From the NCBI GenBank assembly GCA_030154085.1, contig JASKKR010000018.1, forward strand, positions 1 to 41,267: 41,267 nucleotides of DNA. Direction: 5' to 3'. The position numbers and the translations under genes are program-made. Positions 7,545 through 32,057 of the stretch are shown piece after piece. This DNA is from Candidatus Cloacimonadota bacterium. Its GTDB lineage: Bacteria > Cloacimonadota > Cloacimonadia > Cloacimonadales > Cloacimonadaceae. Position 1 is the stretch's first letter; each line of letters starts with the position of its first letter. The notes below the pieces were generated by a model that saw only the letters and a list, made by a program, of their open reading frames with translations, made no database searches and was not told the DNA's origin.

Positions 7545-7553
7545 GCTCGGTTG

Positions 7554-7592: not shown

Positions 7593-7602
7593 TCAAGGCG
7601 AG

Positions 7603-8459: not shown

Positions 8460-8500
8460 ATTTGCAATTTTCGGTGATCTTTATTTGCAATTTTCGGTGA
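8460..8500. repeat. two tandem copies of an 18-base motif upstream of dnaE
   Basis: ATTTGCAATTTTCGGTGA occurs exactly at 8460-8477 and 8483-8500, each followed by a TCTTT-containing spacer (period 23 bases, about two helical turns). It lies 110-150 bases before the dnaE start, as paired regulator sites often do. The rest of the 8104-8609 gap holds nothing else I can support. Confidence 0.5.
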
Positions 8501-8554
8501 GTCTTTATACACATTATATCCAAACTGAGCATAGGAACTGAGTGTGGATTTTGT

Positions 8555-8582
8555 TTGACATAATTACATAGTCACAGACAAT
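8555..8582 (+). promoter_or_regulatory. candidate promoter of dnaE
   Basis: TTGACA (8555-8560), a 16-base spacer and GACAAT (8577-8582; four of six consensus bases) place a start near 8589, about 20 bases before the dnaE ATG and just ahead of its ribosome site. Confidence 0.35.
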
Positions 8583-8609
8583 GCCATCATTAGTGACACG
8601 GAGATCAAG

Positions 8610-11600: not shown

Positions 11601-12047
11601 GAAATGGAAGATCTATCTGGTAAATTTGAAGTTCCACTTTTTAACCGGGATTATGAGCGATACATGAACTTAATCGAGATCGGCAAAGTTTTTTATGTCT
11701 CTGGAGCCAAAAGTCTATATAATGGTAACGATGATGGAATCCTGAGAATCCTGCCAAAGGCTTTGATACCTTTTGATGAATTGCCACAGGTTTTGCGGGG
11801 GAGCCTCAAGATTCGATTGCAAAATCATCAGATCAAAAAAGGCTATCTTAGCGAAATCAGCACATGGTGCAAACGAAAACCAGGAAATGTGAGTTTGCAA
11901 GTGACTGTGGAAGCGTCTGATATGGAATATTATACACTTGAGACTAAAGATCATATTTTCCCCGATAATACTATTTTGATATGGTTGGAAAAACAGGGAC
12001 TGGAATTCGGTTTGGACGTCTATACAGATGAAAAAAAAGATTATTAA
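8610..12047 (+). CDS. dnaE: DNA polymerase III alpha subunit
   Basis: 1145 residues, the normal length for the DnaE1 class. ATG with CGGAG seven bases upstream. The N-terminal PHP domain shows FVHLHNHSQYSLLDG, ITDHGN and NDCHYL. The palm carries GPGRGSAAGS near 353 and the catalytic acidic motif PDIDIDF at 394-400; the third Asp is in KMDILGLKTL (D551). The C-terminal part has the OB-fold region (SLVGIVSNFSRKKD, FVEMEDLSGKFEVPLFNRDYERY) and a short tau-binding-type tail. This is the replicative polymerase of the chromosome. Its last 20 bases overlap the next gene, so it appears to lead a three-gene unit with the GWxTD proteins. Confidence 0.97.
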   Translation: MSFVHLHNHSQYSLLDGACRVDRMVKLAKEMNMPALAITDHGNLFGVIDFYKTAKAAGIKPIIGTEAYIINGNIESELHKNATRYHLILLAQNYKGYQNLMKLSSFSYINGFYYKPRISKSLLEEYNEGLICLSACVKGEIPSLLSAERYGQAEEVAKWYKNIFGDRFYIEIQDHGLDIEKAVMPKVIDLAKKCDIPMVLTNDCHYLHQEDHESHDILLCIQTGKLLNDPGRMRYDTTQLYFKSPEEMQQIFPDYPEAYENTLKIAERIDLELKYDKFLLPKVETPPEYPEMGDYLRHLCYEAAKEKYEQVEGEVSERIDYELGVIKRMGFEGYFLVVKDIIDNARKQDVPVGPGRGSAAGSIIAYLLDITKIDPLKYGLLFERFLNPDRVSMPDIDIDFCAQKRNKVIDYIVQKYNRENVTQIITFGTLGAKSVIKDVARVLSVPASEANKITKTMPGMVKNLEEAQKQFPEFMDLINQNELYQSILKHSIVLEGLIRQTGIHAAGVVIAPGNLTDYVPLACSSQKDGEKVILVQYEGKWLDELKMLKMDILGLKTLTLIKKTVDLVKQSHDIGIDIDSIPLDDQEVFDLLGKGETDGVFQFESDGMRKYLGELKPNRFEDLIAMVALYRPGPMQFIDSYIARKHGKEKVTYDHPLVENALKDTYGVTIYQEQVMQISRELGGLTGGEADTLRKAMGKKKTDLMMIFQEKIIAGAAKNGVPRSTIDKIWQDWLKFAEYAFNKSHATCYALVAYQTAWLKAHYPVEFMAALLSLEDDPADIPLEIEVCKNMGINIIPPNINRSEAEFSVHNSDVLFGLRAIKNLGESAMRAIIEDREQNGVYTNIFDFCSRLDSSSVNKTVLESLIASGAMDELEGTRAQKWAAIEQALALSSGDQRDRKRGQTSLFDLIIEEDSNFFPALPTVEEWSYLHQLEMEKSVLGFYMSGHPLFEYRSLLKYLCTGNSITGKNKYKDMSLVGIVSNFSRKKDNKGNPIAFVEMEDLSGKFEVPLFNRDYERYMNLIEIGKVFYVSGAKSLYNGNDDGILRILPKALIPFDELPQVLRGSLKIRLQNHQIKKGYLSEISTWCKRKPGNVSLQVTVEASDMEYYTLETKDHIFPDNTILIWLEKQGLEFGLDVYTDEKKDY

Positions 12048-13146
12048 CTTCTGGTTCTTTGTAGTAATCTTACTGCCCCTTTTTGGACAAGAGATGGTAG
12101 TGGAGAACTATGAAACAGGAGTAGATATATGGATTTTAGTGCCATATGACATCTTTCGCTTTCCGCGGGATGCAGAGCAAGCCGAATATCAAGTGTCTAT
12201 CCAAATCCAAGATGCACAAAATAAGCAGGTAACAGTAGCTGAGAGGAAACTCACAGTGCCAAATCAAGATTGGTTGCAGGGAAGTGCTATTCCAATTTAT
12301 CAACAGCTTACACTTTCTGCTGGAAACTATAGCCTAAACATGACTCTCCGCAATCGGCAATTGGGCGACCGGCATAATTTCATCAGAAACTTTTTGGTTA
12401 GCAGGCAGATTACGGAAATAGGACAAGCATATATCATCGCCGAGCGGGATGGTTTTGAATACGTTCCGGCAAATCCAATGAGCCGTTATTTGGATAAAAT
12501 GACCCTGAGACTGAGCTATGGTTTGGATATAGATAAAATCATCCTGAACTTGGATAAGCAGAGCTATAACTTCATTGATCCCCAAAGCCCATTCGAACTT
12601 GAAGTGATGGATTATGCTGTCCCCGATAGCACTTCAAAATTATCTTTGACGCTCTTCCAACAAAACGTCTGTTACAATCTCGAACCATTGTATTATGGTC
12701 AATGGTTTTCCTTTAATCAACGCTATTCGTTAAAAGATCAAATAGATCAATTACGCTATATCGCTAGTCAAAACGAATGGCGAGTGCTCAGTAAAGTATC
12801 CAAAGACAAATATGCCGACGCCATAGAAAGCTTTTGGCAGGCACATGATCCCACTCCGGGTACTATCCGCAATGAAAACCGTGAGTTATTTTATCAGCGG
12901 GTTATTAAGGCTGATGAGCTATTTACAATCCATAGAAGAATGGTGGGCTGGAAATCGGATCGGGGACGAATCTATATCAAATTTGGTGAACCCGATCAAA
13001 TCGTAAATGACAGCTTCCCAATCGGCAAACCACCCAGCATAATTTGGCACTATTTTAGACTAAACCGCGTCTTTGTCTTCGTTGATGAACGCGGATTTGG
13101 GCAATATAAACTAAGGAATACAGAAGATGAATATATCGATTTTTAA
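12028..13146 (+). CDS. exported GWxTD-domain protein, first copy
   Basis: 372 residues with a signal peptide (MKKKIINFWFFVVILLPLFGQ) and a beta-rich N-terminal half. The C-terminal third carries GWKSDRGRIYIKFGEPDQI near residue 308, the signature of GWxTD proteins (here GWKSD). The family is common in Acidobacteriota, Bacteroidota/Chlorobi and Cloacimonadota, and its function is not known to me. The start lies 20 bases inside dnaE and the end overlaps the second copy by 20 bases, so all three are probably translated from one message. Export to periplasm or envelope is predicted from the signal peptide. Confidence 0.85.
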   Translation: MKKKIINFWFFVVILLPLFGQEMVVENYETGVDIWILVPYDIFRFPRDAEQAEYQVSIQIQDAQNKQVTVAERKLTVPNQDWLQGSAIPIYQQLTLSAGNYSLNMTLRNRQLGDRHNFIRNFLVSRQITEIGQAYIIAERDGFEYVPANPMSRYLDKMTLRLSYGLDIDKIILNLDKQSYNFIDPQSPFELEVMDYAVPDSTSKLSLTLFQQNVCYNLEPLYYGQWFSFNQRYSLKDQIDQLRYIASQNEWRVLSKVSKDKYADAIESFWQAHDPTPGTIRNENRELFYQRVIKADELFTIHRRMVGWKSDRGRIYIKFGEPDQIVNDSFPIGKPPSIIWHYFRLNRVFVFVDERGFGQYKLRNTEDEYIDF

Positions 13147-14473
13147 AAAGTCCTTGCTACTGTGCATTTTAATCGCTAGCAGTTTGGGTCTTTTTGCCCA
13201 AGCAAAACTCAATATGTATATCGATTACAATCGGTTTTTAGATCATGAGGGCAACACTATCCTTTTGATAGATTATGAAATTCCATATCGAAGTCTGCTA
13301 TTTTTGGCGCATAACAATGCCTTCTTTGCACAGGTAGAAGTAGAAATCCAAGTGGCAAACCAGGATTCTGTGATCTATACCCACCAAGTCTCTGATAATA
13401 TAGGCATAAGCAGCAAGCACGACGCCAGTTCAAACGTAAAGTCTTATCTCAATCGGATAAGCTTCCTGATGAGCGAAGAACACTATGACATCTCCTTCAC
13501 AGCCACAGACCTGCTCTCAAAAAACAGCTTTGTGTGGAGCTTTGGCGTCGATGCTCTTTCCCCTAGAAGCAGAATCAGCGATTTGGAACTCAATAGCCGA
13601 GTCTATGTAGATAGCAGCGCTTATCTAGAAAAGTTCCGCCGGCAAGGCAAAGTATATGAACCGACAGTGTCCGCAATCTTACGACGCCAGTATCATGAAA
13701 ATGCACATCTATATCTGGAAATATACACACCTGAAGAAGAGCTGGGCGAATCCCAACTCCTTAACCTGAGTCTGGAACAAAACGGGATATTGATTGTGGA
13801 TGAATATATGGATTTTATTCCGACTAAACCGCATGAGAGCTTTACCCTCAAGATCCCGCTCACAGACCTACCAGCGGGCAAATATCAAGCTTGGGTATCA
13901 CTGCAAGCTCGTGAATATCAGGAAGATCGAGATTTTGAATTTGTGCTATCAGAAGAGATCGAGACTATGCTGAGTATCTTTAACAGCCCAGATGATGAAT
14001 ATCAGCTCATGCGCTATTTCATGGCTAGCAATATGCCAGCAAATTGGGATAACATGGATATTGACACCAAACGGAGACACATTAGCAATTTCTGGCGAAA
14101 TATGGCAATTGCAACTCGAATGACTGAGACTGAGGTGATGGATCTTATCAATTCACGTGTCGAACATGCAAATCGGTTTTATTCACATCTTCGACCAGGC
14201 TGGACTACAGACATGGGACGCATCTATATCCGTAACGGAGCCCCTGATGATATCGAAAAGGGGACAAGCTCAGATGAGAGTCGCTTTGTTCGCAAAGACT
14301 ACCAAATCTGGAAGTACCACAGCGGGAACAGACCAGTCTATATCTTCATTGATATCCAGATGAACAATAATTACCGCTTGATCTACGCTAGTGGAGATGA
14401 TATGGAAATTACAAATCCGGATTGGTTGAGATATCTGGGCGGTGATTTTGACGTAAGTCTCTTAAGAAACTAA
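13127..14473 (+). CDS. exported GWxTD-domain protein, second copy
   Basis: 448 residues with a signal peptide (KSLLLCILIASSLGLFAQA). The C-terminal domain has LRPGWTTDMGRIYIRNGAPDD near residue 358, the canonical GWxTD form, followed by YQIWKYHSG and RPVYIFID as in the first copy. The N-terminal region is about 75 residues longer than in the neighbour, and the two share overall plan but little obvious identity outside the signature, so the duplication is old. It overlaps the preceding gene by 20 bases and converges on yraN with a 37-base gap lacking a clear terminator. Function unknown. Confidence 0.85.
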   Translation: MNISIFKKSLLLCILIASSLGLFAQAKLNMYIDYNRFLDHEGNTILLIDYEIPYRSLLFLAHNNAFFAQVEVEIQVANQDSVIYTHQVSDNIGISSKHDASSNVKSYLNRISFLMSEEHYDISFTATDLLSKNSFVWSFGVDALSPRSRISDLELNSRVYVDSSAYLEKFRRQGKVYEPTVSAILRRQYHENAHLYLEIYTPEEELGESQLLNLSLEQNGILIVDEYMDFIPTKPHESFTLKIPLTDLPAGKYQAWVSLQAREYQEDRDFEFVLSEEIETMLSIFNSPDDEYQLMRYFMASNMPANWDNMDIDTKRRHISNFWRNMAIATRMTETEVMDLINSRVEHANRFYSHLRPGWTTDMGRIYIRNGAPDDIEKGTSSDESRFVRKDYQIWKYHSGNRPVYIFIDIQMNNNYRLIYASGDDMEITNPDWLRYLGGDFDVSLLRN

Positions 14474-15017: not shown

Positions 15018-16163
15018 ATGAAAAAAATTATATTAAGTGTGATTGTTATCGCAACGATGTGTGGTCTGTTGAATGCAGTGCCGTTCCAGACTTTGGGCAT
15101 GTTGCGCACCCCGGATGCTTATGTATTACCCCATACAGCGGCAGAAATCATGGTTGGCGGTTATTATCGCGATGTTGCTAAGCCTGTGGATTATGACGGT
15201 TTCACACCTTTTGTGATGCTCGGAGTGGGTATTCTAGATAGAGTCGAACTCGGACTCTTCGTGGGAGACAAAATTGAAGATGAGCCGCTAGTTTATTTTT
15301 TGAATGTAAAGGCTAAGATCTTGCAGGAAACATCATTGCTACCTCAGCTATCGGTGGGAATAGACAACATCTTATCTCCCATTGGTGAGACCAGCGTGGA
15401 AGACCTGAACCCGGGAGATGACTTCTATAATCATCCCGACAATGCCGGATATGAGATATATTCACCATATGTGGTTGCTTCCAAACAAGCTGTAATTCTG
15501 GGTATGCCGTGGATGCTAAATCTTGGTGCTGGTGCACACCGTTTTACCGGTCAAGCTTCAAGATCTCGTGTCTTGAATGGCTTCTTTGCTTCAGCAGAGA
15601 TGTCACCTGTCCAAAACCTCACCCTTCAAGGTGAATTTGATGGACAAGATGTCAATGCTGGGATTAAGTATAGCTATCGAAACTGGGGTGTTAAAGTTGG
15701 TGCACAAGCCTTGGAAGACCTAACCAAAGATAATGGCTACGAAGACAACCTGAGATTGGCTTTTGGCTTAAGCTATCTTTTCGATAAATATGCCGAAGCC
15801 AAGCGTCGTCCGGACATCAGAACCTATGCAAAAGATGAGCATTTGGAAGAATCCTATGTGGTAGATCTTGGAACAGGTTCAGTAGAAAAAAGCTCCCCGA
15901 CTGACAAAGCTATCGTTGATAAGCAAATTGTCCCCACCCCTCAGGATACTCGTCCTGGTGAGACTGTCACCACACCTACAGGCACTCTTGAAACTCCAGG
16001 ATATGCCGAGGGTGATGCTATTAGCTCTCAGGCACAGTTGTCTCCAGAAATACGCGACCTTCTGGAAGAACTTAGAATTCTTAGAACCGAGCGCGAAAAG
16101 GCTCAGAAATCTCTAGACGATTTGCGGGCATGGATTGAACAGCTTAAGCAGGAAAAGAAATAA
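15018..16163 (+). CDS. outer-membrane protein, YjbH-like, with C-terminal coiled coil
   Basis: 381 residues from the ATG at 15018; GGTGGAGGG directly upstream is the ribosome site, so the in-frame GTG at 15006 is not the start. Signal peptide MKKIILSVIVIATMCGLLNA. The mature protein opens QTLGMLRTPDAYVLPHTAAE, resembling the entry of YjbH-type exopolysaccharide-linked barrels ('G-l-TPsA'). Strand-like segments run to about 265. A Pro/Thr-rich linker follows and then a heptad-like helix at 345-381 (LLEELRILRTEREKAQKSL). The family call is tentative. The helix would reach into the periplasm, and the gene lies directly upstream of the TPR/ExbB/ExbD/TonB operon, so it could be its outer-membrane partner; that is inference from position. 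Confidence 0.55.
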   Translation: MKKIILSVIVIATMCGLLNAVPFQTLGMLRTPDAYVLPHTAAEIMVGGYYRDVAKPVDYDGFTPFVMLGVGILDRVELGLFVGDKIEDEPLVYFLNVKAKILQETSLLPQLSVGIDNILSPIGETSVEDLNPGDDFYNHPDNAGYEIYSPYVVASKQAVILGMPWMLNLGAGAHRFTGQASRSRVLNGFFASAEMSPVQNLTLQGEFDGQDVNAGIKYSYRNWGVKVGAQALEDLTKDNGYEDNLRLAFGLSYLFDKYAEAKRRPDIRTYAKDEHLEESYVVDLGTGSVEKSSPTDKAIVDKQIVPTPQDTRPGETVTTPTGTLETPGYAEGDAISSQAQLSPEIRDLLEELRILRTEREKAQKSLDDLRAWIEQLKQEKK

Positions 16164-16220: not shown

Positions 16221-16250
16221 GCCAGGGTGCATGGGTACCCTGGCTTTATA
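16221..16250 (+). terminator. intrinsic terminator or leader attenuator
   Basis: Perfect 8-bp stem GCCAGGGT / ACCCTGGC (16221-16228 with 16237-16244), 8-base loop, then TTTATAAT. It ends the YjbH-like gene and would also be transcribed from the promoter at 16165-16192. Confidence 0.65.
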
Positions 16251-16295: not shown

Positions 16296-19200
16296 ATGAA
16301 AAAGTATTTAATTTTGGTTTGGCTCGTCTTGTCATCATTGGTTTGTTTTTCCCAGCTTTCAGCCCAAGCTACCGACTACGTAGAGCAACTTACAATTCAG
16401 CAACTACAAGAAGAAATTCGAGAACAAAAAAGGCAGATCCGCGAAGTAGCCAAGAGTTTCTTGGTTGACGAACTTCCTGTAGTTATTGAGTTGGACCCTC
16501 AGCGTGCAAGCCAAGAGCTGCAGCTTTTCAGCAGCACCCTCAGCACCCTGGGAGACGAAGAAACATCTTTACTACTTGGGCATATGTACGCAAGGATGGG
16601 GGAATATGATAAGGCTATAATTATCTTTGATTCTTTGCTTCCCACAGAGCTAAACTCAGATGCGCGCCAGATGCTGAATATAGTCCTCTATCGTAAGCTA
16701 GCCGACTTGCTGGAGCAAGGTGACCGGGAATCTGCCCGGGAATATCTTAAATATATTATTTTCGGTATTTATAACACAGGCACTTACTTCCCTGCGTATC
16801 TATATCTATATGCAGATTTAAGCGCAGATAATCAGGAATATGATCATGTCCTTAATCTCATAGATGCTTACAATTTCACTCGTCAGACTGTATTAAACAC
16901 CCTCCTCCCTGCTAAGCAGAGAGTATTGGATAGATTAGATTCACTAGATCTGGAATCCTATTTTGAAAATAGCGACCCTGAATTACTTGCTCAGATGTCT
17001 ATGACCATAGACCAAATCCAAGGCGATCTTACTCTAATCCATTCTGAGATGTTGGGTATGCAGGGCATGCTCTTTATCGATGAACTTGTGGAGACACATA
17101 AGCGCGAAAGTGAATTGTTAGCCGATCTAAAGAAGGATCTTGAAAACCTCAGCAAAGCAGATGAAGTGATCGAGAGCCAAATGCAGACAGCACGAGAAAG
17201 CATTGCGGAGATAAAACAAAGCCTCCAGTTTTACGATCGCGTCTTGTTGCTATTTGACAATCATCTTCAGAAGAATTATCTTAGACTTAGCTCTGATCCA
17301 GACTCCATAGATCAGCAGATATATGCTGGTGATCTATACCTTGATCGCATCTACCAGATTGATCGCACGATCGCTATATATGACCAACAGCTGGAGTTAA
17401 TCGACTCTCAGCTTGCTTCCGGTGAATTCCCTGAGCATGAAGCCAGACTTCTTGAAGAGCGTGCTTTGATCATGGCTGAAAAGGAAGATGCCCAAGCTCT
17501 TCGCGTTAGCTTTGTTGATGACCTTGAGAATTTAGCAGATGAAGATGCTGCGGCTCTCTTGGAAATCCTTGACGAATACAATGCTTTGGTCAAAGACCGT
17601 GACCTCCTTCGTGAGACTACTCTGTCCTTGGAAGAATATATCGAAACCGATGTCAAAGAAATGGTCAGCTATGAAGCACGGGGAGGGACTCAAGCGAGAA
17701 TCCTGGCAAACATAGCCGAGCTTAAGGATCCCCAATTGCGCCATCGTGCCATCATAAATGGATATGAAGACTATCTGGCTCACATTGAGTTTTTGAGCCT
17801 ACATCTCTCCTATCGTGAGCTGATGAAAGATACTCATGATTTCTTTAATACTCAGGAAGAACACTCCGATGAAGAGCGGGAAATACAAAGGAATCAGCTC
17901 CGTGAAAGGCACATATCTCTAATCTCAGACATTGAAGCTTTTTTAAATGAGAATCCTGAATTTGCCTCTTTTATCCAACCCGATACGACAAATCTGATCA
18001 CCGTCGCAGATCTACACTATAAGCTTGGGGAACTTAAATATTTCAGCTATCCAGCCGAGCCAGAACGAGCTCTTCAGGATTACCGAAAAGCAGCTCGACT
18101 TGACCCCCATTTCCCTGATCGTGAGCTCGCTTTATACAATGTAGCGGTGATCTCAAGCGAGTTAAAGCGCAGTGAAATTGATCAAAATAAAATAGCATTC
18201 CATGAAACCGCTGATACAAATGCTATGCTTCCGGCTGACTGTCTATATTCTGAAGCCAATTTCAGCGAGACTCTTCAAGCCCTCAAAGAAATCGTAGAAA
18301 ACTACCCTGATTCACAAATCTACGAAGAATCAATTTACCGTCTCGGATTGCTATATTTCCGCTTTGCTGATGATTCGCAGGATCCAAGTTATTATCATGA
18401 CCTAGCTATTCAACACTTTGACACAATCATCGATAGACCTCAAAGTCCTCTGTATTATGAAGCTCTCTATCAACGAGGATGGGTACGTCTGAATAGCTTT
18501 GATAATGATGAACTCATGCTGGCCATGGATGACAATATCGCGATACTCAAAGCCATAGAAGCGCAAGACATCTCTGACCCGCAACTTGCTTCAGATTACC
18601 AGGTCGACGCCATCAACAACATCGCCTACGGTCTGATCGCGCTCGACGGAACAAACTTCCAAAGTGAGTCCCGAGGAGTGACTGAAATCTATAATGTCTT
18701 TCGTGAATACAACAATGAGCTTGTTATCCAAGAAGTAATAGACAAAGCTATAGAGAATAAACTCAATATGGGGCTTACCATACAAGCTATTGACTTCATG
18801 AAACTGAAGCTAGAACACAATCCATTGGCTTTGGAAAACCCTGTTTTGCTGGATTCCATGCTTGTTTTATATCACAATTCCGGTCAGCCCCTAAGAGCAG
18901 GAGAAGACCTGGATCAGATCACACAGGATATATACCAAAAGCTGATCGATGATTATAGCCCATCAACTCAGTGGTATGCAGCAAATAATCATTATGATAT
19001 TAGCCGGCAGATGCAGATTGTGGATAATGCTTACCGACAAAGAGGTATTCGTTTGCTAAATATCTTTGCAGCAGATATCAATCGGGATAACCTTCGCACC
19101 TATGCTGCACACAGTCAGCGCTACGATGCTTTTGCCAAATATTATGCTGAGGATTACCTAGAATTCAGCACTATTAATGATAACCTCTTAGTCAATGCTT

Positions 19201-22121
19201 ATGCTGTATTAGCGGATCAAACCGACGATATATCAGACTATTTGATTGCAATTGAGAAGCTCTACGACTTTAATGAGAATCATCCCTATAACAGCCAGTT
19301 TTATGATAATGAAGAGCTGGCAATGAATTATGCCAGAAATGTCTATGCCAAAATCTCAGAATCTCTAGCCGATCTGGGAGAAGAAGGAACAGCTCGCATT
19401 GATGAAGCCTTTGACTTACTGTTAAACAGTGCAGAACGCTTTATTCTAGTGTCGAATAATGAATTGCACAGTTCTCCACAAAGGCGACTCAAGGCTCTTG
19501 ATATAATTTTGCTCCTGGGAGATATTCAGATGAGCCACATGCACTATGAAGATGCTGCCAACTTCTACAACAGAGCTCTTGAGCAGGAAGAACTACTGTC
19601 CGATGCAGACAAGCGTGACTGCTATCTCAAGCTTGCTGAGATCAGCATACAGCAAAAGCGTCACAGTGATGCCGAGCAATGGCTACGTCTTGCTCTTCCT
19701 CTTGCTGACTCTGAGGAAGATCAGGTTAATATCAAGCAGGACATATTAGTACAAATCCAGAGCAGCTTCGAAAGCGCTGCAGAAGCTCAAGATTACATTC
19801 TAGAAGCTAAAGAGCGCTTGCGCTTAGCAGATGCCTTAGATCCCTCTCGCACTTCAGAAATTTTGGGACACCGCATGGCAGCCGTCGAAGCCTATATAAA
19901 TGCTGGCGAATATCAGCAGGCCATTGATCTATTAATGGCAATCGCTGAAGATGATACCAGTATCGACGCTGTCTATGCTCGCTATAATAGAGCATATGAG
20001 ATCGCAAAGAATGAACATATGCTGAATAATCCTGACTTGGCACGTGCTATTGAGCTAGATTTCATAGACCAATATCCCGCCAGCAACTACAGCTTCCACC
20101 TACGTCTTGCAAATATCCAGGACATCGCGGAAACAGATCCAGCATCTGCTGCAGAACTCTATCTTGCCCTTTTTGAAGAAGTTCAAAACGGTGAGATTGA
20201 TCCTGGTGAGGCAGAAGCAAGCGATCTCTTGGAGGATGCAATCCTTATGTATGCTCGTAGCGGAAATATCACCGCAGAGTATGCACTGCGTCATCGCTTT
20301 ATTGATCTGTATCCCGAACATAGAAATGTGATCCCATATCTGGAATATATGGCAAAAGGACATCTTGATCGTAACGAAATGGATGAATACACTGCTATAG
20401 CTCGCGAGATCATGCGCCGCAATCCGGATAAGGACTCCTATTACCAATTCGTAGCTGATACCAAATTATTACAGATAGCCAGCAGATTTGACGAGGCATA
20501 CTTAAACCAAGATTACGAAGAAGCCTTAGCAATTCGCGATGAATATCTTGCTACTGAAGCTAATTATATTGCAGAAGGACTCAGTTTTGACAATGATAAT
20601 GTGCACGAAGTCTTTGCTGCTGTTCAAGCAGAATATGATGAGATCCAAAAGCGCAATGCCTTCTTAGCTAAATATGATGAGCGTCTGACAGCTCTAGAAA
20701 ATTCCCCCATCTTCACCTCTACTCCGGCTCAACAGATTCGAGTAGTACCAATCACCACATGGGACTACAATCTCAATGGTGGAGATCAGAGAATCCCTCG
20801 CTATCGTGAAACCATCGCCACCGAAGTAGCAAAAGTCACTGACCTTATCAGAGAAGCAAATGAAACCGGTTACTTCATCAGCAACGAGCGCAGACTACGA
20901 GCCATGGACCTCATATGGAGGATATACGAACGAGGAGCCGAAGTAGTCAGCAACCAATTAGAGCAGTATTTCCGCATCACAAATGAAGCCGCATACTATC
21001 GTGAGCAATATCCCGGAGAAGCTCTTGATAATGTGATTGCGCAGTTTAATTTACAGCAAACACAGGATTATCTAAATAACGCCGTTTCTTGGCAATTTGA
21101 GATTTTCCGCCAATATCACCTTGCAGGATATGAAGATGAATACACCATCTCTGCTCGGGAAGCTCTTGCGGCAAGAGATCTCTTAGCAGAATATCAAGAG
21201 CAGGAATTTGTCTTTGACGACAGTTGGGAGCAAGAATTAAATCCATCTTCTGATCTACTCAATATCCAAAACATCACGAGCCCCAAGGGGCAAAACCTGG
21301 GTAGTGTCATGATTCCTCCCGGACACACATTGAAGGTTTCCAAGAGCATCGATCTTACTCTTGAACCAGATTTTGCCTATCTGCATATTGTTTTCCCACT
21401 TGATATCCAAGTTTATCTCAATGGCAGCCTCGTACAGTCTTCCTGGGTACCAATCGACAGTTTAGAAACCGATCAAGCTCTCAGCACCAGATATAGCTAC
21501 ATGATCCCTGGTGAGCTCTTTACTCAGGGTCAAAACATGTTGGAAATAGTGCTATCCAACGACAGCCCCGAGAGTCTACAAATGGCCATGTGTGTACAGC
21601 TAATGACCAATAAACAGCGCATATTGGCAAACATCCCACCCGAGATCATAAATATATATTCCAGTACAGACTGGAAAGTCATCAGAACTGATCCTAATAC
21701 AGGAGAAATCTCAGAGCAGTCTGCGGATTTTGCTCCAGAATGGAACATCACTTGGGATCAGATTGTAAATATGGAGCCCTCTGCAGCCGAGCCGATTTGG
21801 ATATCAGAACTTTCCGCTCCCGTTGATACCCTTGTGTTTGAGACTGAGTTTATCGTAGAAACCAATTTCATAGAAGGAATGATAGACCTTGTCGCTCCTG
21901 AATCCGTAACAGTATATCTCAATGGTTCTAATATCGGCAGCAGTATTTTCGATTACGATCCTGATCCTTTGGAAGTTTACAAAGGGCAGATCATTATTCC
22001 CGCACAAAATATCATAGCTGGCAGAAATGTGCTAAGATTTGAGGTAAACAACAGCTCCCCATACCGAGGATTTTTAGCTCATATCACATACACTCAGACT
22101 GGTAAGGAGGCAATCCGATGA
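16296..22121 (+). CDS. giant exported TPR protein of a TonB-type envelope system
   Basis: 1941 residues with a signal peptide (MKKYLILVWLVLSSLVCF ... SAQA) and a modest GAGAGCGG ribosome site. Most of it is helical and acidic. Tetratricopeptide-like repeats include SLLLGHMYARMGEYDKAIIIF near 90, PERALQDYRKAARLDPHFPD near 590 and YEDAANFYNRALEQEELLSD near 1085. Coiled-coil stretches lie near 250-310 and 360-450. The last 270 residues switch to beta-sandwich: VMIPPGHTLKVSKSIDL with IQVYLNGSLVQSSW (from about 1671), then DTLVFETEFIVET with VTVYLNGSNIGSS (from about 1843), like galactose-binding or jelly-roll modules. It overlaps the next gene by ATGA and heads the ExbB/ExbD/ExbD/TonB genes. A periplasmic scaffold for that motor is the likely role, comparable with TPR partners of TonB systems in Myxococcota and FCB bacteria. 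Exact function unknown. Confidence 0.85.
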   Translation: MKKYLILVWLVLSSLVCFSQLSAQATDYVEQLTIQQLQEEIREQKRQIREVAKSFLVDELPVVIELDPQRASQELQLFSSTLSTLGDEETSLLLGHMYARMGEYDKAIIIFDSLLPTELNSDARQMLNIVLYRKLADLLEQGDRESAREYLKYIIFGIYNTGTYFPAYLYLYADLSADNQEYDHVLNLIDAYNFTRQTVLNTLLPAKQRVLDRLDSLDLESYFENSDPELLAQMSMTIDQIQGDLTLIHSEMLGMQGMLFIDELVETHKRESELLADLKKDLENLSKADEVIESQMQTARESIAEIKQSLQFYDRVLLLFDNHLQKNYLRLSSDPDSIDQQIYAGDLYLDRIYQIDRTIAIYDQQLELIDSQLASGEFPEHEARLLEERALIMAEKEDAQALRVSFVDDLENLADEDAAALLEILDEYNALVKDRDLLRETTLSLEEYIETDVKEMVSYEARGGTQARILANIAELKDPQLRHRAIINGYEDYLAHIEFLSLHLSYRELMKDTHDFFNTQEEHSDEEREIQRNQLRERHISLISDIEAFLNENPEFASFIQPDTTNLITVADLHYKLGELKYFSYPAEPERALQDYRKAARLDPHFPDRELALYNVAVISSELKRSEIDQNKIAFHETADTNAMLPADCLYSEANFSETLQALKEIVENYPDSQIYEESIYRLGLLYFRFADDSQDPSYYHDLAIQHFDTIIDRPQSPLYYEALYQRGWVRLNSFDNDELMLAMDDNIAILKAIEAQDISDPQLASDYQVDAINNIAYGLIALDGTNFQSESRGVTEIYNVFREYNNELVIQEVIDKAIENKLNMGLTIQAIDFMKLKLEHNPLALENPVLLDSMLVLYHNSGQPLRAGEDLDQITQDIYQKLIDDYSPSTQWYAANNHYDISRQMQIVDNAYRQRGIRLLNIFAADINRDNLRTYAAHSQRYDAFAKYYAEDYLEFSTINDNLLVNAYAVLADQTDDISDYLIAIEKLYDFNENHPYNSQFYDNEELAMNYARNVYAKISESLADLGEEGTARIDEAFDLLLNSAERFILVSNNELHSSPQRRLKALDIILLLGDIQMSHMHYEDAANFYNRALEQEELLSDADKRDCYLKLAEISIQQKRHSDAEQWLRLALPLADSEEDQVNIKQDILVQIQSSFESAAEAQDYILEAKERLRLADALDPSRTSEILGHRMAAVEAYINAGEYQQAIDLLMAIAEDDTSIDAVYARYNRAYEIAKNEHMLNNPDLARAIELDFIDQYPASNYSFHLRLANIQDIAETDPASAAELYLALFEEVQNGEIDPGEAEASDLLEDAILMYARSGNITAEYALRHRFIDLYPEHRNVIPYLEYMAKGHLDRNEMDEYTAIAREIMRRNPDKDSYYQFVADTKLLQIASRFDEAYLNQDYEEALAIRDEYLATEANYIAEGLSFDNDNVHEVFAAVQAEYDEIQKRNAFLAKYDERLTALENSPIFTSTPAQQIRVVPITTWDYNLNGGDQRIPRYRETIATEVAKVTDLIREANETGYFISNERRLRAMDLIWRIYERGAEVVSNQLEQYFRITNEAAYYREQYPGEALDNVIAQFNLQQTQDYLNNAVSWQFEIFRQYHLAGYEDEYTISAREALAARDLLAEYQEQEFVFDDSWEQELNPSSDLLNIQNITSPKGQNLGSVMIPPGHTLKVSKSIDLTLEPDFAYLHIVFPLDIQVYLNGSLVQSSWVPIDSLETDQALSTRYSYMIPGELFTQGQNMLEIVLSNDSPESLQMAMCVQLMTNKQRILANIPPEIINIYSSTDWKVIRTDPNTGEISEQSADFAPEWNITWDQIVNMEPSAAEPIWISELSAPVDTLVFETEFIVETNFIEGMIDLVAPESVTVYLNGSNIGSSIFDYDPDPLEVYKGQIIIPAQNIIAGRNVLRFEVNNSSPYRGFLAHITYTQTGKEAIR

Positions 22122-22414
22122 ATAAGAGCATGTTAATGGTCATCCTAATTATATCTTGTGCTTGGGTCCTATCTGCTCAACAAAGCACAGATAGTCCCAG
22201 ACCTGGAGAACCCACCATGACCGCAGATGGCATTGTAGTAGACACGGAAGAGATTGTCATCGAAGTTCGTTCTTTTGCGCCAGTTTCTGGTATCTATAAG
22301 GTCAAACAAGATACTTTTTTGCCCACCGGTAAATACCGCTTTTTACTGGATGAGCAAACGGTCAAAGACAAGAGTGAATTACTACTAAATAAATGGCTTA
22401 AGGAGTCAAAATGA
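22118..22414 (+). CDS. small exported protein of the Exb/TonB operon
   Basis: 98 residues, ATG overlapping the upstream stop (ATGA) with AAGGAGG in front, and stop overlapping the ExbB start in the same way. Signal peptide MNKSMLMVILIISCAWVLSAQ, leaving about 78 periplasmic residues. VDTEEIVIEVRSFAPVSGIY suggests a short beta domain, and DKSELLLNKWLKESK a C-terminal helix. I recognise no family. Tight coupling on both sides argues for a stoichiometric part of the complex, perhaps a periplasmic cap or adaptor for the motor. Confidence 0.75.
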   Translation: MNKSMLMVILIISCAWVLSAQQSTDSPRPGEPTMTADGIVVDTEEIVIEVRSFAPVSGIYKVKQDTFLPTGKYRFLLDEQTVKDKSELLLNKWLKESK

Positions 22415-23172
22415 AAAGCAAGCATAGTATACTCGTTCTAGTTATCCTGTTACTTAGTGTTGGTTTTCTCTTAGCGCAAGAGACCGCAGGAGCACCTGTT
22501 GCTGCTAAACGTGGCGTGAACCTGATCGAGGTTTTTACGGCAAGTGGAGTATTTGCATATTTAATTTTGCTAAATCTAATCATAGGTCTGGCAATGGCAG
22601 TAGTCCGCTTCATCCAGCTCTACGTTCGTGAGAAGATTGATGCTGAAAAGTTCTTTTTAAAACTCAAGAATTTTGTAAAAAACGACCAAATTGATGAAGC
22701 CACCAAGATTGCGGATCAATTCCGTTCAACTACTATGGGTTTTATATTTTTCAGTGGACTCAGTGTCTACAAAGACATCCGCAAATCCGGGAAGAAGGGT
22801 GAAGAAGCCCGCATTGCTGTGCAAAATGCTTTTGATGAAGCCGTCCTTCAGACTGTACATAAACTTGATGGGGGACTTTTCTGGTTTGATACCCTGGCTC
22901 AGATCTCGACCTATCTCGGCCTTTTAGGAACCATTTTTGGGTTGATTGCAGCCTTCGGTGCTTTAGGTAATCTTACTGGTGCGGCAGCCAACAAAGCTCT
23001 CACCGAGGGTATCTATATGGCCATAGGGACCACTGCTCTCGGTTTGATAGGTGCTATTCCCCTTACCCTTATCAAAGGCGGACTCTTTACCCGCGCTCAA
23101 AACTTAATCAGCGATATCGATGAATATAGCGTAAAAATGGTTAACCATATCAACAATTACATTAAGGAATAG
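22411..23172 (+). CDS. ExbB/TolQ/MotA-family proton-channel protein
   Basis: 253 residues. An extra N-terminal hydrophobic segment (SILVLVILLLSVGFLLAQ) ends in an Ala-Gln signal-cleavage-like site, ahead of the usual three membrane helices: FAYLILLNLIIGLAMAVV near 48-66, STYLGLLGTIFGLIAAF near 169-185 and TTALGLIGAIPLTLIKG near 210-226. The LGLLGT and TALGL-AIP motifs carry the conserved Thr residues lining the ExbB pore. The cytoplasmic loop (70-165) is the expected length. With ExbD it should use the proton gradient to drive the TonB-like protein. Four-base overlap with the gene before and four-base gap to the ExbD after. Confidence 0.93.
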   Translation: MKSKHSILVLVILLLSVGFLLAQETAGAPVAAKRGVNLIEVFTASGVFAYLILLNLIIGLAMAVVRFIQLYVREKIDAEKFFLKLKNFVKNDQIDEATKIADQFRSTTMGFIFFSGLSVYKDIRKSGKKGEEARIAVQNAFDEAVLQTVHKLDGGLFWFDTLAQISTYLGLLGTIFGLIAAFGALGNLTGAAANKALTEGIYMAIGTTALGLIGAIPLTLIKGGLFTRAQNLISDIDEYSVKMVNHINNYIKE

Positions 23173-23176
23173 GATT

Positions 23177-23701
23177 ATGGCAGTATATCGTCCTTCCCAG
23201 GCAAGGCAACAAAAGTCCCAAACTGCACCGCAGGAACCAAACTTGGTTCCGATCATGAACCTCTTCGTCACCATTATCCCTTTTCTAATGTTGATGATCG
23301 TGATATCGCAGGTGGCACTCGTGGCTTTGAATTTTTCCTCGGAAGGAGGACCAGTCGTTGCGGGCGATGGTACTGGCGAAAGCGGCGAATCCGGCAAACA
23401 AATAGAGATTCATCTCATGCTAAAAGAACATTCGAGCGGATTATTCCCAGGTATGGAAATTCGTGAGCCTGATGGCAACATACACAAGCTGCCCAATCTG
23501 AGTGAGAATGTATATGATTTCAATAGATTGAATGAACTCTTGATCGATATGAAACAGCGTTATGCTGATACAAATGAAATCGCCGTGATAGTGCATCCCG
23601 AAGTTATTTACGACACCCTGATCCGCACGATTGACCTCTGCAAAACCAATGGCTTTGTCTCCGTGCATTACAAGAACCCCAAAACTGTATACTATTATTA
23701 G
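23177..23701 (+). CDS. ExbD/TolR-family protein lacking the membrane Asp
   Basis: 174 residues with ExbD layout: a short cytoplasmic N-terminus, one membrane helix (PIMNLFVTIIPFLMLMIVIS, about 25-44), a Gly-rich linker (GDGTGESGESG) and a periplasmic alpha/beta domain ending NGFVSVHYKNP. In ordinary ExbD/TolR the helix starts with P-x-I/V-D, whose Asp carries the proton; here that position is N28 (codon AAC at 23258-23260). I believe similar 'MNLF' ExbD forms occur in Myxococcota-type loci, but could not search. Paired with the next gene, which keeps the Asp. Confidence 0.9.
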   Translation: MAVYRPSQARQQKSQTAPQEPNLVPIMNLFVTIIPFLMLMIVISQVALVALNFSSEGGPVVAGDGTGESGESGKQIEIHLMLKEHSSGLFPGMEIREPDGNIHKLPNLSENVYDFNRLNELLIDMKQRYADTNEIAVIVHPEVIYDTLIRTIDLCKTNGFVSVHYKNPKTVYYY

Positions 23702-23716
23702 ATTGGGGGAGGAACA

Positions 23717-24262
23717 ATGAGTAGTATTGATTATAACGTACGCAAGCAAAAAGGAAGACGTGCAATCCGCAAAAAAGCCGAAGAGATTAAGGGACTTTCG
23801 ATCACTTCCTTGTTAGACGTACTCACCATCCTCCTAGTATTTCTGATCAAGAATGTCTCGATGGAAGCGGTTAAAATCTCCGAATTACCAGATATGAAAT
23901 ATCCCACTACCGCCACCGTTGAGTCCCTCATGGATAATGCTATAGTGACTCCTGTAAAATTATACAGAGATCGCGTACTCCTTGGCTTGGACAATCAGCT
24001 TTTGGGTACTCCGGAAGAACTGATCGAAGACGTCGAGACGCGCTCAGTAATGCTTGAATTCTTTCAATCTGAGATGCGCGAAATACCGGAAGATAGATAT
24101 GACGAAGCTTGTCTGATTGTGCAAGCTGATAGAGATATCCCCTGTGCCTACATCACTGAGATTGTGCGCGTTGGCACTAACACCGGTTATCAAAACATCT
24201 ATTTCGCTACTTTGGAGGAAGCAGACTGGCTCTCAAGCTATGCTTCTGCTTCGTTTAAGTAA
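23717..24262 (+). CDS. ExbD/TolR-family protein with canonical membrane Asp
   Basis: 181 residues, with a very strong GGGGGAGG ribosome site. A basic cytoplasmic N-terminus (RKQKGRRAIRKKAEEIK) is followed by SLLDVLTILLVFLI, in which D34 occupies the proton-binding position of the ExbD helix. The periplasmic part contains a segment rich in acidic residues and ends DIPCAYITEIVRVGTNTGYQ, as expected for the ExbD C-terminal domain. It is distinct in sequence from the upstream ExbD, so the pair is not a recent duplication. In known motors an ExbD dimer sits inside an ExbB pentamer; here a heterodimer with one protonatable side chain is plausible. Confidence 0.92.
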   Translation: MSSIDYNVRKQKGRRAIRKKAEEIKGLSITSLLDVLTILLVFLIKNVSMEAVKISELPDMKYPTTATVESLMDNAIVTPVKLYRDRVLLGLDNQLLGTPEELIEDVETRSVMLEFFQSEMREIPEDRYDEACLIVQADRDIPCAYITEIVRVGTNTGYQNIYFATLEEADWLSSYASASFK

Positions 24263-24275
24263 AAGGGGAGACATT

Positions 24276-25670
24276 ATGGCAAAAATCTTAAGTCTCAGAT
24301 TGAACTATAAAGGCAAATTCCTCGACTACGCAAAAGAAGGGAAAGAAATCAAAAAGAAGTTCATTATAGGTCAAAACAAAAACTTGCAGTGGCAGATATT
24401 AGACCCATCTTTCCCTGACAAATTTCAGCTTATCAAGCAAAAGGGTAGGCAATATGTGATGCAACTCCCTCCTGGAAGTGAGCTTAGCTGCGAAATTGAT
24501 GGCAAACCCCTCGATAGCGAGTACCTAAAACAGAATCACTTACTTTCAGGTAACGAATTAGTACTGAATAAAGATATGAAGGGAACTCTGACCGTCTCCA
24601 AAGATTGGAGTATTGATTTCGACTTCCGTGAACCATGGGTTGCTGTGCTCACCGATGAAGAGCGTGCCATCGTCGCTCAATATGCCAGACGCTCCAAACC
24701 GGATGCCATCTCTAGATTCAATCGAACCGTGGTCTGGATTGTCTTGTTGCTCACTGTCGCCTTTATCCTGCTATTTGATCAAGTGCTAAAACCAGAATAT
24801 ACTTTCGAAGAGACCATCCAAGAGCGGCTTCAAAATATTCAGAGCGCTCAGCGGGTGATCCCAGAAATTGTGAGCCCCCAACCAAGCTTTGCTCAGCCTT
24901 TAGACAATACTCCCGAGCAAACTGAAGCTGATGCTACAGATTCTCAGGTTACTACTGGTACCGGTCCCAGAGGATCTGCAGGGCTCACCCGCACATTACA
25001 AGGTTTTGACGCCAGTGCCACAGGAACCGCTCCCGCTCTCACTATAGCCACCGTGACTGAAGGTTTTACCGCCAACCGTCCCGGATCAAGACCTGGAAAT
25101 GGCATCAGTACTGGACGCGGAACCGTAGCTGGAATAGCTACCGGGACTGCTTACAATCCTGCTGCAACTCCTGTCTTTGAGGACATAGGTTCAGTGGTAA
25201 CCAGCGGTCCACAGACTGGTGGTTACAGCGTGCGACCTGAAGGTGCCAGTGGAATACATATCACCGGTGATGCCAGCTCTTTGGCTCCCAGTGGACAATC
25301 CTGGGGTGATGTAGTAGAACAGCAAAGAATCGCAGCTGATTTTGCCCGCAGAGGAATATCTACTGTGAACGAAAGTAGCATCACCACTCTTGATGAAGAT
25401 ACTCGCACCAAATATACCAGTCTCCGTGAACAAATAGAATCACGTCAAAGTCAAATAGAGCACGCATATCGCGAGATGCAAATCCGTCAAAATGTTAGCT
25501 TTACCATAACCCTCTTCATCCGTGCCGATGGTACGGTCAAAGAATCTCAAGTGATCCCGAATGGTAGCTATCCAGAAGCTTTTGTCGCGAAGGTAAAAAG
25601 TATTGTGGATAGTTGGAAATTCAATGTTCGTGAAGAAATGGCTTATCAATTCCGCATAAGAGCCGGTTGA
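24276..25670 (+). CDS. TonB-like protein with FHA-like cytoplasmic domain (AgmX/PglI-type C-terminus)
   Basis: 464 residues from the ATG at 24276, preceded by AAGGGGAG; the frame is open further upstream but that part overlaps ExbD and lacks a site. Residues 1-130 are a soluble beta-rich domain (KKFIIGQNKNLQWQ, YVMQLPPGSELSCEIDGKPL, SGNELVL) with FHA-like spacing but without the canonical GR...S..H residues. One membrane helix follows at about 150-170 (VVWIVLLLTVAFILLF). Residues 175-380 are a Gly/Ala/Thr/Ser/Pro linker able to span the periplasm. The C-terminus (SFTITLFIRADGTVKESQV ... SIVDSWKF) matches the TonB-type domain seen in AgmX/PglI proteins. The architecture recalls GltG-like proteins of the Myxococcus gliding machinery. 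It is the last gene of the operon. Confidence 0.85.
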   Translation: MAKILSLRLNYKGKFLDYAKEGKEIKKKFIIGQNKNLQWQILDPSFPDKFQLIKQKGRQYVMQLPPGSELSCEIDGKPLDSEYLKQNHLLSGNELVLNKDMKGTLTVSKDWSIDFDFREPWVAVLTDEERAIVAQYARRSKPDAISRFNRTVVWIVLLLTVAFILLFDQVLKPEYTFEETIQERLQNIQSAQRVIPEIVSPQPSFAQPLDNTPEQTEADATDSQVTTGTGPRGSAGLTRTLQGFDASATGTAPALTIATVTEGFTANRPGSRPGNGISTGRGTVAGIATGTAYNPAATPVFEDIGSVVTSGPQTGGYSVRPEGASGIHITGDASSLAPSGQSWGDVVEQQRIAADFARRGISTVNESSITTLDEDTRTKYTSLREQIESRQSQIEHAYREMQIRQNVSFTITLFIRADGTVKESQVIPNGSYPEAFVAKVKSIVDSWKFNVREEMAYQFRIRAG

Positions 25671-25693: not shown

Positions 25694-25724
25694 AAGCCCC
25701 GCATCAAGTGGGGCTTATTTTATT
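25694..25724 (+). terminator. intrinsic terminator of the TPR/Exb/TonB operon
   Basis: Perfect 7-bp stem AAGCCCC / GGGGCTT (25694-25700 with 25710-25716), 9-base loop, then ATTTTATTT. It lies 23 bases after the TonB-like stop. Confidence 0.85.
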
Positions 25725-30179: not shown

Positions 30180-32057
30180 TCACTTTATAATGCTTATTTT
30201 TTTGCTGATAGGGTTCCTACCCCGACTCTGTATGCGTACAAAGTATATACCAGACGCCGGGAAGACAGAATTTTTTATATGTTCGGATTGGCTGAAATTA
30301 GGATTGTAATAGATGCGTTGTCCTCGAATATTAAAAATGCTTAGTTGAGCTTGATCCGGATAGTGGATAGACAGTTCCTTATTTGTAAAAAGCGGATTGG
30401 GATATAGCTCCAAAACTGCTGCCGGGACCAGATCATCCGAGACGGAGGTGTTAGTTTCAGGATTAATTTCACAGAAATCTGCATAGTAGATCCTACCCCC
30501 GTTTTTCTGCTGGATCCAATAGTAGATGCGATAATCTTGCACGAGATCATCAAAGGAGATTCCTGAGGCTTGGAGCTGGTAGCTTTTATTAATCGTTGCA
30601 CCAAGATTGAGAGCGCTATTTACCGTATCTGCAAAGGCAATCCAATTTGAAAACACATAGCTCTGCGAAGAACCAAAATCATGTTTTTTGAAGAGACCAA
30701 CAAAAATCCTGCTTTGCATCATCAAGCTTTGTGTGGTGCTTGTATAAAGACTGGTGAAATCGTTTGTAAATTGCAGATCGATATTGATGTTGTCAGAGTT
30801 CTCCTGGCTGCGAATCGTGTAGCTTGATGAGCTGATAAAGCTACGATCCTGACTTATCTTTAAAAGAAGATCATAAAACAAATCTTCATAGTTATTCGTA
30901 AAGCCGAAGATCTGCTGATGCCCTGCTCCAGTTGTAATGGGAATGGAATTGTATGAATACCAGTTAAAGCGTCTCATCGACCCCAGATTGGCCAAGGAAT
31001 CCGAAAGAATGGGATAGTAATTTAGAAACTGCAGCCTGGAAGTATCACCACTTTGTTGAATTTGATTGAATAGAGAGCTTTGATCCTCCCTGATAAAATT
31101 TTCCACTAAATGGAAGGGGCTTTCTTCGATAAAAATCTCAAAGTGTTTTAGCTTGCTGTTATTTGCAATGTGTAAATCGCTTTCCGGATACTCACTATGG
31201 ACCGTCGCTTCGATGCGCAATTGGGTGGGATCAATCGGCAGACTGAGCGTGGGTAGAAATCCACTCTGAGAATCAAATTCGTAAAGTTCATGAGCTTCAA
31301 GGCTATGAGGAATCGCAATGTTTAATGTATTATATTCAGCAAAACCTGGACGGCTAAAGACCAAAGTTAACTCGGCTTCATTAATAGGGAACGGAGAATG
31401 ATTGTAAATACTAAACGAGGGATACACTACTCCGCCAGGGACCAAATCTCCTTCCAGGTCAAAACTCTGGAGACGAAGATCCGCTTCATCAAAGACAAAA
31501 TCACCGAGCAGCCCAAAGAGTAGGTCACAATTGAATCCGGAATTTGAAAAAGAGCTCAGATATTGCAATTCTCCTAGTTGGTTCATATAGTAACTGTTTG
31601 TGCCACTACCTCTACTTGCAGCCACAAAGCGGTTGCTCATATTCGTGCGGTAGTCCACCAATAACCAGATGACGTCAGCTTCGATCTCGGTATCGAAACT
31701 GATGTCAATCATTTGTTGATCCACTGCTGCTCTCTTGCGAGCTACCGGGATGCCGGGTCCACCAACACTGTCGAGCGCTAGCTCTACCGTCACAGAATCA
31801 CCCATATTGGGGAACCAAAGTCGCGCCCCATGAGTGCTGAAAAGAAGATTTTCCATTCCGGGATAGTCTCTTTTAAAATCGAAACGCACAGCCCAACGAT
31901 TTGAGCCAAAAAAATTGTAGTCATTTGACGAATTGTGGTTATGATAATGAAATTCCCGATTCCCTAGATCCAAGGTCCTGCCATCAGCTTCAAAATAGCT
32001 GATAGAATATAGTAAGCTGAGCAACAAGGGAAGGATCAAAATAATGCGCTTTAGCAT
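30180..32057 (-). CDS. secreted protein with type IX secretion C-terminal signal
   Basis: 625 residues, ATG preceded by GAGGAG. Signal peptide near MLKRIILILPLLLSLLYSIS. The body is beta-rich with a CARDB-like segment around 215-300 (VYPSFSIYNHSPFPINEAEL). The last 75 residues form a T9SS type A sorting domain: LELYPNPLF, LSIFNIRGQRIYY and SGIYFVRIQSRG, ending in a basic tail KKISIIK. Such proteins cross the outer membrane and are usually anchored at the surface. No catalytic motif was found. Its start overlaps the ribF stop by 7 bases, so a surface protein is embedded in a housekeeping operon. Confidence 0.82.
   Translation of the reverse strand: MLKRIILILPLLLSLLYSISYFEADGRTLDLGNREFHYHNHNSSNDYNFFGSNRWAVRFDFKRDYPGMENLLFSTHGARLWFPNMGDSVTVELALDSVGGPGIPVARKRAAVDQQMIDISFDTEIEADVIWLLVDYRTNMSNRFVAASRGSGTNSYYMNQLGELQYLSSFSNSGFNCDLLFGLLGDFVFDEADLRLQSFDLEGDLVPGGVVYPSFSIYNHSPFPINEAELTLVFSRPGFAEYNTLNIAIPHSLEAHELYEFDSQSGFLPTLSLPIDPTQLRIEATVHSEYPESDLHIANNSKLKHFEIFIEESPFHLVENFIREDQSSLFNQIQQSGDTSRLQFLNYYPILSDSLANLGSMRRFNWYSYNSIPITTGAGHQQIFGFTNNYEDLFYDLLLKISQDRSFISSSSYTIRSQENSDNINIDLQFTNDFTSLYTSTTQSLMMQSRIFVGLFKKHDFGSSQSYVFSNWIAFADTVNSALNLGATINKSYQLQASGISFDDLVQDYRIYYWIQQKNGGRIYYADFCEINPETNTSVSDDLVPAAVLELYPNPLFTNKELSIHYPDQAQLSIFNIRGQRIYYNPNFSQSEHIKNSVFPASGIYFVRIQSRGRNPISKKISIIK

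Follow-up and report, generated by a model that had tools for sequence, protein, structure and literature searches.

A putative Glt-type trans-envelope motor with an Asn/Asp pair of ExbD subunits, encoded by a conserved operon of Cloacimonadota

The Glt-Agl core complex is made up of the products of gltC, gltD, gltE and gltG together with those of aglR, aglQ and aglS, and outside the Deltaproteobacteria these genes are clustered in one region (PMC3169522). GltG, also named PglI, binds AglR in Myxococcus xanthus, AgmX is another name of GltJ, and an exported protein of 89 aa, GltF, is encoded between GltE and GltG (PMC3169522). Here we compare with this machinery a six-gene operon of a Candidatus Cloacimonadota bacterium (assembly GCA_030154085.1, contig JASKKR010000018.1). 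The window that was analysed is this one entire 41-kb contig (41,267 nt) from a genome of 1.95 Mb that is 99.75% complete. The operon encodes a giant exported tetratricopeptide repeat (TPR) protein, a 98-aa exported protein, an ExbB, two ExbDs (ExbD1 and ExbD2) and a TonB-like transducer, and our data support its assignment as a proton-driven Glt-type trans-envelope motor, not a nutrient-uptake Ton system. An earlier note on the same DNA, the original prediction, had already proposed an envelope or surface motor akin to Agl/Glt, which agrees with the transducer matches described below. It did not foresee that one ExbD would be of the Asn and the other of the Asp type, that the FHA domain would have lost its phosphothreonine-binding residues, that the TPR giant stems from two genes, or that a motor-less variant exists.

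In MotB, ExbD and TolR, a transmembrane (TM) Asp carries the proton. This residue was kept in ExbD2 of the operon (Asp34, motif SLLDVL) and was replaced by Asn in ExbD1 (Asn28, motif VPIMNLF); both fall on the same Pfam column and align with the Asp of the three other ExbDs of the genome. The original prediction had recognised two ExbDs beside ExbB, in line with the Pfam matches (ExbD, 2e-7 and 7e-8; MotA_ExbB, 1.3e-20); the Asp-to-Asn change in ExbD1 had been overlooked. Within Cloacimonadota, the ExbD1 site was Asn in 33/33 of the relatives first compared and in all 56 loci found by scanning GTDB contigs with an ExbD1 profile, and the ExbD2 site was Asp in 32/32 and 53/53, the two sets overlapping for both subunits. 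A broader search for ExbD1-type proteins covered 387 genomes, 262 of them from other phyla, and found matches in more than 50 of these 262. The 48 other-phylum loci that were read carried Asn (35), Gly (3), Ser (2) or Asp (8) at the ExbD1 site; the query was itself of the Asn type, and the share of Asp types is thus no estimate. ExbD2, which was not selected for, had Asp in 45 of the 45 other-phylum loci where it was found. An apparent restriction of ExbD1 to Cloacimonadota in the GTDB contig scan proved to be an artefact of a tight peptide pattern, as the broader search matched other phyla. The proton-carrying Asp of ExbD has been termed strictly conserved (PMC9008036). A PDB search with the ExbD1 profile returned ExbD structures with weak scores only, interspersed with chance matches.

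The channel threonines of ExbB, Thr174 and Thr208, were invariant in all 61 rows of a cross-phylum alignment. We dropped the idea that the Asn marks a dead motor, since these channel residues and the ExbD2 Asp are invariant, and likewise that of a sequencing error, since the residue is identical in more than 80 genomes. In the ExbB tree, loci with an Asp-type ExbD1 occupied about four spots among the Asn types, with the base of the tree unresolved. More than one change of state seems to have taken place at the ExbD1 site, whereas ExbD2 seems never to have lost its Asp. The ExbBs of the Cloacimonadota and other-phylum loci split from those of the two other motors of the genome (97/94), in a tree where two outgroup rows formed long branches. 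The N-terminal signal-like segment of ExbB noted in the original prediction is real; it is not unusual, as the Ton ExbB of the same genome has one and 'long' ExbBs have already been described (PMC9008036).

The transducer was examined with AlphaFold; all structure predictions in this analysis were of single chains. Residues 1-118 formed an all-beta domain (pLDDT about 95), followed by a TM helix (about 148-171), a disordered stretch of ~145 residues rich in Thr, Gly and Ala (193-337), which corresponds to the Gly/Ala/Thr linker predicted earlier, and a TonB-like beta-beta-alpha-beta end. In a Foldseek comparison with the PDB, almost every one of the 35 best-ranked matches was an FHA domain (probability 1.00, best E 4.2e-4). 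Sequence-only searches (Pfam, NCBIfam, PDB profile) gave essentially no match for this domain. The cytoplasmic FHA-like domain of the original prediction thus holds at the level of the fold and finds no counterpart in the Pfam FHA family. Gly32 and Trp39 were invariant or nearly so in 51 rows, whereas the site of the phosphothreonine-binding Arg (position 33) was occupied by Ser, Asn, Gln and others, with one Arg in 51, and that of the Ser (position 47) by Pro in 51/51. From this substitution pattern we infer that the fold would bind protein, not phosphothreonine.

At the other end of the protein, the NCBIfam AgmX/PglI model matched the C-terminus of 46 of the 51 transducers (best 3e-8), and the cognate transducers of other phyla matched the NCBIfam GltG model from the FHA domain to the tail with E down to 1.6e-49. 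The equivalog cut-off of the GltG model was reached by no transducer scanned. Because of the AgmX/PglI tail and the GltG-model matches of the cognate transducers, we assign the window transducer, by homology, as a divergent member of the GltG family. A search of plasmids found no homologue of it.

The 1941-aa TPR giant matched Pfam TPRs, and its C-terminal 280 residues matched galactose-binding-like domains of a carbohydrate esterase (best 3.5e-6), of rhamnosidases and of GH2 enzymes, as expected from the exported TPR/jelly-roll protein of the original prediction. Judged by these matches, binding of a sugar polymer by the TPR giant is plausible. In deeper lineages (e.g. L100, L106, L112, L123 and L125), its place was taken by two adjacent genes, one for an exported protein of ~690 aa and one for a protein of ~1490 aa, the larger of which aligned with the window TPR protein from about residue 510 onward; by this alignment, the giant is a fusion product of what the deeper lineages encode as two separate proteins.

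The 98-aa protein matched no family in Pfam or NCBIfam, and its structure model, which has no globular domain, runs from a signal helix through an extended middle part to a helix at the C-terminus. Homologues occurred at the same position in most loci and evolve fast, the sole invariant residue in 46 rows being a Pro near residue 55. The end of the protein, NKWLKESK, which is conserved in near relatives, overlaps the ribosome-binding site of ExbB: its last codons at 22396-22414 (KESK, AAGGAGTCAAAATGA) double as the ExbB Shine-Dalgarno sequence and start. Part of the conservation of NKWLKESK is at the DNA level because of this overlap. In place and size the 98-aa protein recalls GltF, of which it may be the positional counterpart.

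The system is widespread in the phylum and not universal. A first survey found the transducer in 34 of 40 relatives; ExbD1 was present in 81 of 125 genomes of the phylum (51 of 71 among those of good quality), and a transducer profile matched 88/125, a count that includes C-terminal-only matches. In the relatives, the recurring order was DnaE, two GWxTD genes, (YraN, reverse), barrel, TPR, 98-aa protein, ExbB, ExbD1, ExbD2, TonB-like transducer and usually PriA. Scattered homologues had been named beforehand as evidence against the original prediction; the core order was instead identical, and on one strand, in 56 of 56 Cloacimonadota loci of the GTDB scan, and homologous loci were found in other phyla, many in the same gene order. 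A strong match to the upstream barrel protein (E <1e-20) was found in 75 of the 81 genomes with ExbD1 vs 10 of the 44 others (Fisher p = 1e-15, uncorrected for kinship), and the six ExbD1 genomes without one were 59-91% complete. This co-occurrence supports the barrel as a steady companion of the motor operon and, along with the constant synteny, strengthens the earlier suggestion that it might be the outer-membrane partner. Its Pfam match, to YjbH (0.0074), was under the cut-off.

Some variation around these loci was also observed. One class-level relative (G117) had the whole system twice, in copies that have diverged from each other, L134 on contig C51 and L138 on contig C24. Another genome (G026) had a second, shorter system at a paralogous locus (L139, 6336-11184) that encodes an ExbB, ExbD1-like and ExbD2-like proteins, a 312-aa protein and a 775-aa exported protein; here, the Asp site was Gly in the ExbD1-like and Asp in the ExbD2-like protein. 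In two other-phylum genomes, ExbB was encoded twice within a single such locus (L187, 8256-11716; L155, 6267-7658).

When compared with Agl-Glt, the operon shares an ExbB with two ExbDs, a transducer composed of FHA domain, TM segment and AgmX/PglI tail, and the clustering of the core genes, as well as large exported TPR proteins, a small exported protein (cf. GltF) and an outer-membrane barrel. It differs in that AglQ and AglS both have the Asp (PMC9389320), in the FHA domain devoid of phosphothreonine-binding residues and in the fusion of two TPR proteins; counterparts of GltI, GltJ and GltK were not seen in the operon. Since the Asp in both ExbDs is not shared, we do not class this motor as the gliding machine itself. 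The TPR-TolQ-two TolR-vWA clusters of PVC bacteria (PMC12204202) likewise combine TPR proteins, a TolQ-like protein, two unlike TolRs and a transducer with one TM segment; their transducer, however, ends in a vWA domain and has an SHLS/His motor-binding motif, whereas the window transducer has a TonB-type end and a TM segment without His. The classical Ton set of the genome itself, on contig C33 (receptor, ExbB, ExbD, ExbD, TonB), has homologous ExbB, ExbD and TonB C-terminal fold, but it differs by its adjoining receptor and by the Asp in both ExbDs.

A match in layout comes from Fibrobacter, where FSU_2396-2403 encode, in order, OmpA, TPR, TPR, ExbB, ExbD, ExbD and TonB proteins that are more abundant on cellulose, and where a complex with cellulases was reported to contain FSU_2396 (OmpA) and FSU_2397 (TPR) (PMC6851124, PMC4619616). 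Two genomes of our set, L195 and L196, encode proteins of 55, 84, 145, 22, 32.4, 19.9 and 32.6 kDa in order, to be compared with the published 55.97, 83.8, 146.7, -, 32.4, 18.2 and 32.5 kDa. From these masses and the gene order, L195 and L196 are very likely Fibrobacter. Order and component types are the same as in the operon, and here too ExbD1 lacks the Asp (Gly in L195 and L196) and ExbD2 has it. The Fibrobacter transducer, however, is short (311 aa) and has no FHA domain, the first gene is of the OmpA family and ExbD1 is larger (297 aa).

The envelope genes were also found alone. In three genomes of two genera in one family (G085, G089 and G091), the genes for the barrel and PriA remained, as did the two TPR genes and one gene of the 98-aa type; ExbB, ExbD1 and ExbD2 were cleanly gone, and the transducer was replaced by an exported protein of ~255 aa with the TonB-type domain only. 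The Cloacimonadota loci with envelope genes and without the motor and the transducer TM/FHA part are L130 (2684-11228), L131 (about 3900-12344) and L132 (about 4100-12520). The envelope module can therefore be maintained in the absence of force, and since the TonB-type domain was kept, these loci suggest that this domain has a structural role in the envelope assembly. A further locus, L145, was at first taken as motor-less; this arose from greedy ORF calling, and a stop-to-stop HMM search revealed the motor.

In the standard turnstile, two equivalent sites alternate and one proton passes per 36 degrees, and breaking the symmetry of the pair would give five states per turn, with 72-degree steps or limping (PMC9389320). 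The D22N exchange in MotB mimics the protonated state, and a heterodimer of AglQ and AglS is treated as an open question in the same review (PMC9389320). As one of the two ExbDs of the operon cannot carry a proton, a heterodimeric axle is the arrangement we propose: the ExbB pentamer would enclose one ExbD1 and one ExbD2, protons would load only on Asp34 of ExbD2, and Asn28 of ExbD1 would be the permanently neutral half. The motor would then take five unequal or 72-degree steps per turn, not ten equal 36-degree ones. With the ExbD periplasmic domains gripping peptidoglycan, it would move the transducer, whose C-terminal domain would cross the wall and pull the assembly of TPR protein, 98-aa protein and barrel at the outer membrane, possibly by pairing strands with either the 98-aa protein or the barrel. 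A phosphate-independent contact of the FHA domain might place the inner-membrane part. The most likely task would be to exert force on, or to move, an adhesin or polymer-binding complex at the surface; the Fibrobacter cellulose data and the sugar-binding-like domains favour a role in adhering to a surface polymer or in moving it.

Taken as a whole, an Agl-Glt-type motor with a heterodimeric axle that applies force to a surface or polymer complex of the outer membrane is the best explanation of our data, and we hold it with some confidence. Several points weigh against it. The window TPR protein, although large, exported and in the same locus position, is at most a putative counterpart of GltC, GltD or GltE, and the transducer TM segment lacks the His that couples TonB and TolA to their motors (any His in the TM segment: 2 of 51 rows). 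Force is not always needed, since the motor-less clade keeps the envelope parts. Our literature search found neither an experiment on a system that has the Asn/Asp pair nor a report of gliding or of a related phenotype in Cloacimonadota, and no adhesin or substrate was identified for the operon.

Part of the same data could be read differently. If the pore held an ExbD2 homodimer, as in a normal 5:2 motor, ExbD1 would be an accessory outside the pore that binds peptidoglycan or regulates. That only ExbD2 keeps its Asp everywhere and that the periplasmic part of ExbD1 is the more variable of the pair would fit; however, the full TM motif of ExbD1 around the Asn (PIMNLF..IIPFL) is highly conserved, unlike what is expected of a freed accessory, the two exbD genes are always adjacent, and the Asp at the ExbD1 site of some relatives suggests a position in the pore. 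We regard this homodimer as unlikely, albeit the least unlikely of the alternatives. More doubtful still is a mainly structural scaffold between outer membrane and wall with the motor as a dispensable add-on, for which the main evidence is the motor-less variant, found in three genomes from two genera, where the barrel, the pair of TPR genes, a gene of the 98-aa type and an exported TonB C-terminal domain are intact. This layout was observed in just one small part of one family, and elsewhere motor and envelope genes occur together, in the 56 loci and in many other-phylum loci; the ExbB channel residues, moreover, are invariant.

A specialised TonB-ExbB-ExbD system for nutrient uptake is very improbable in our view. 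The family membership of ExbB, ExbD and TonB would allow it, and the authors who described the Fibrobacter counterpart interpreted it as importing cellodextrins (PMC6851124), but no TonB-dependent receptor lies near the operon. The two receptors of the genome are on other contigs, C33 and C35, so that the TonB-like protein, in line with the original prediction, is not paired with such receptors; the FHA domain, the GltG/AgmX tail, the giant TPR partners and the absence of a TM His are also at odds with uptake. We give equally little credit to a Tol-Pal substitute that draws the outer membrane inward at division, even though ExbB is closest to TolQ among the NCBIfam models (4.6e-20) and the TPR proteins, with weak YbgF/CpoB matches, recall CpoB. 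Neither TolB nor Pal is encoded in the operon or its conserved neighbours (a genome-wide search for the two was not made), the system is absent from about a quarter of the good genomes, and the genome has another ExbB-ExbD-TonB/TolA-like set on contig C27.

Reading of the sequence and its ORFs placed all six genes of the operon on the + strand just where the original prediction had them, with its ATGA or short junctions (in order, ATGA at 22118, ATGA at 22411, 4 nt, 15 nt and 13 nt) and its closing terminator (Table 1). The barrel gene ends ahead of a hairpin of its own and is therefore probably a separate transcription unit from the operon. Further upstream, 3' of DnaE, two GWxTD-domain proteins (window 12028-14473) are constant neighbours of the barrel-motor block throughout the phylum, with no known link to it. 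Elsewhere in the window, a 625-aa protein (30180-32057, - strand) has a type IX secretion sorting domain (Por_Secre_tail, 2.5e-7). GldM, the motor subunit of type IX secretion and gliding, was sought in the same genome as another motor (GldM_1st), without a match; this negative is weak, as the control search performed poorly. In a 1871-aa protein (1165-6780, - strand), a GH94 supersandwich domain (1.7e-75) is joined to glucoamylase-like domains, a combination found in cyclic beta-glucan synthases.

Table 1. Features of the motor operon and its upstream barrel gene in the window
Feature	Position	Strand	Basis or remark
Outer-membrane barrel protein; conserved C-terminal helical tail	15021..16163	+	Possible alternative start GTG 15006
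Terminator-like hairpin at the boundary of barrel gene and operon	16221..16244	+	Hairpin search
TPR protein, 1941 aa, exported	16296..22121	+	Pfam, locus comparison
TPR protein, C-terminal galactose-binding-like (jelly-roll) region, residues 1660-1941	21273..22118	+	Profile matches
Exported protein of 98 aa with signal peptide, extended middle part and C-terminal helix	22118..22414	+	Structure model
ExbB/TolQ/AglR-type channel subunit with T174 and T208	22411..23172	+	Pfam, alignment
ExbD1 axle subunit; transmembrane Asp replaced by Asn28	23177..23701	+	Pfam, alignment
AAC codon of ExbD1 Asn28, column of the proton-carrying Asp	23258..23260	+	Alignment
ExbD2 axle subunit; transmembrane Asp34 kept	23717..24262	+	Pfam, alignment
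GAC codon of ExbD2 Asp34	23816..23818	+	Alignment
GltG-type transducer (TonB-like), 464 aa, ATG start	24276..25670	+	Domain and structure searches
Transducer FHA-fold domain, residues 1-118, without canonical phosphothreonine-binding Arg and Ser	24276..24629	+	Model, Foldseek, alignment
Transducer AgmX/PglI-type TonB-like C-terminal domain, about 374-464	25395..25667	+	NCBIfam, model
Intrinsic-terminator-like hairpin at operon end	25694..25716	+	Hairpin search

Models of 5:2 motors (MotAB, ExbBD, TolQR) assume two identical axle Asp residues that alternate, with ten protons used and ten steps of 36 degrees made in each turn. In the Asn/Asp pair, Asn is the laboratory mimic of the protonated state; a natural pair of this kind argues for a heterodimer and makes the general question of how such motors turn directly testable. 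We see an even chance that a broad class of 5:2 proton motors, found in at least 25 taxonomic families outside the phylum, uses an obligate heterodimeric axle, one half of it permanently carboxylate-less (Asn, Ser or Gly), with five instead of ten proton transits per turn. If this is true, the symmetric turnstile cycle would not be the sole way for 5:2 motors to work. The clade in which only the motor was lost separates the envelope part from the engine. All in all, the locus would add a whole uncultured phylum to the range of the Glt core and join this core to the cellulose-induced cluster of Fibrobacter.

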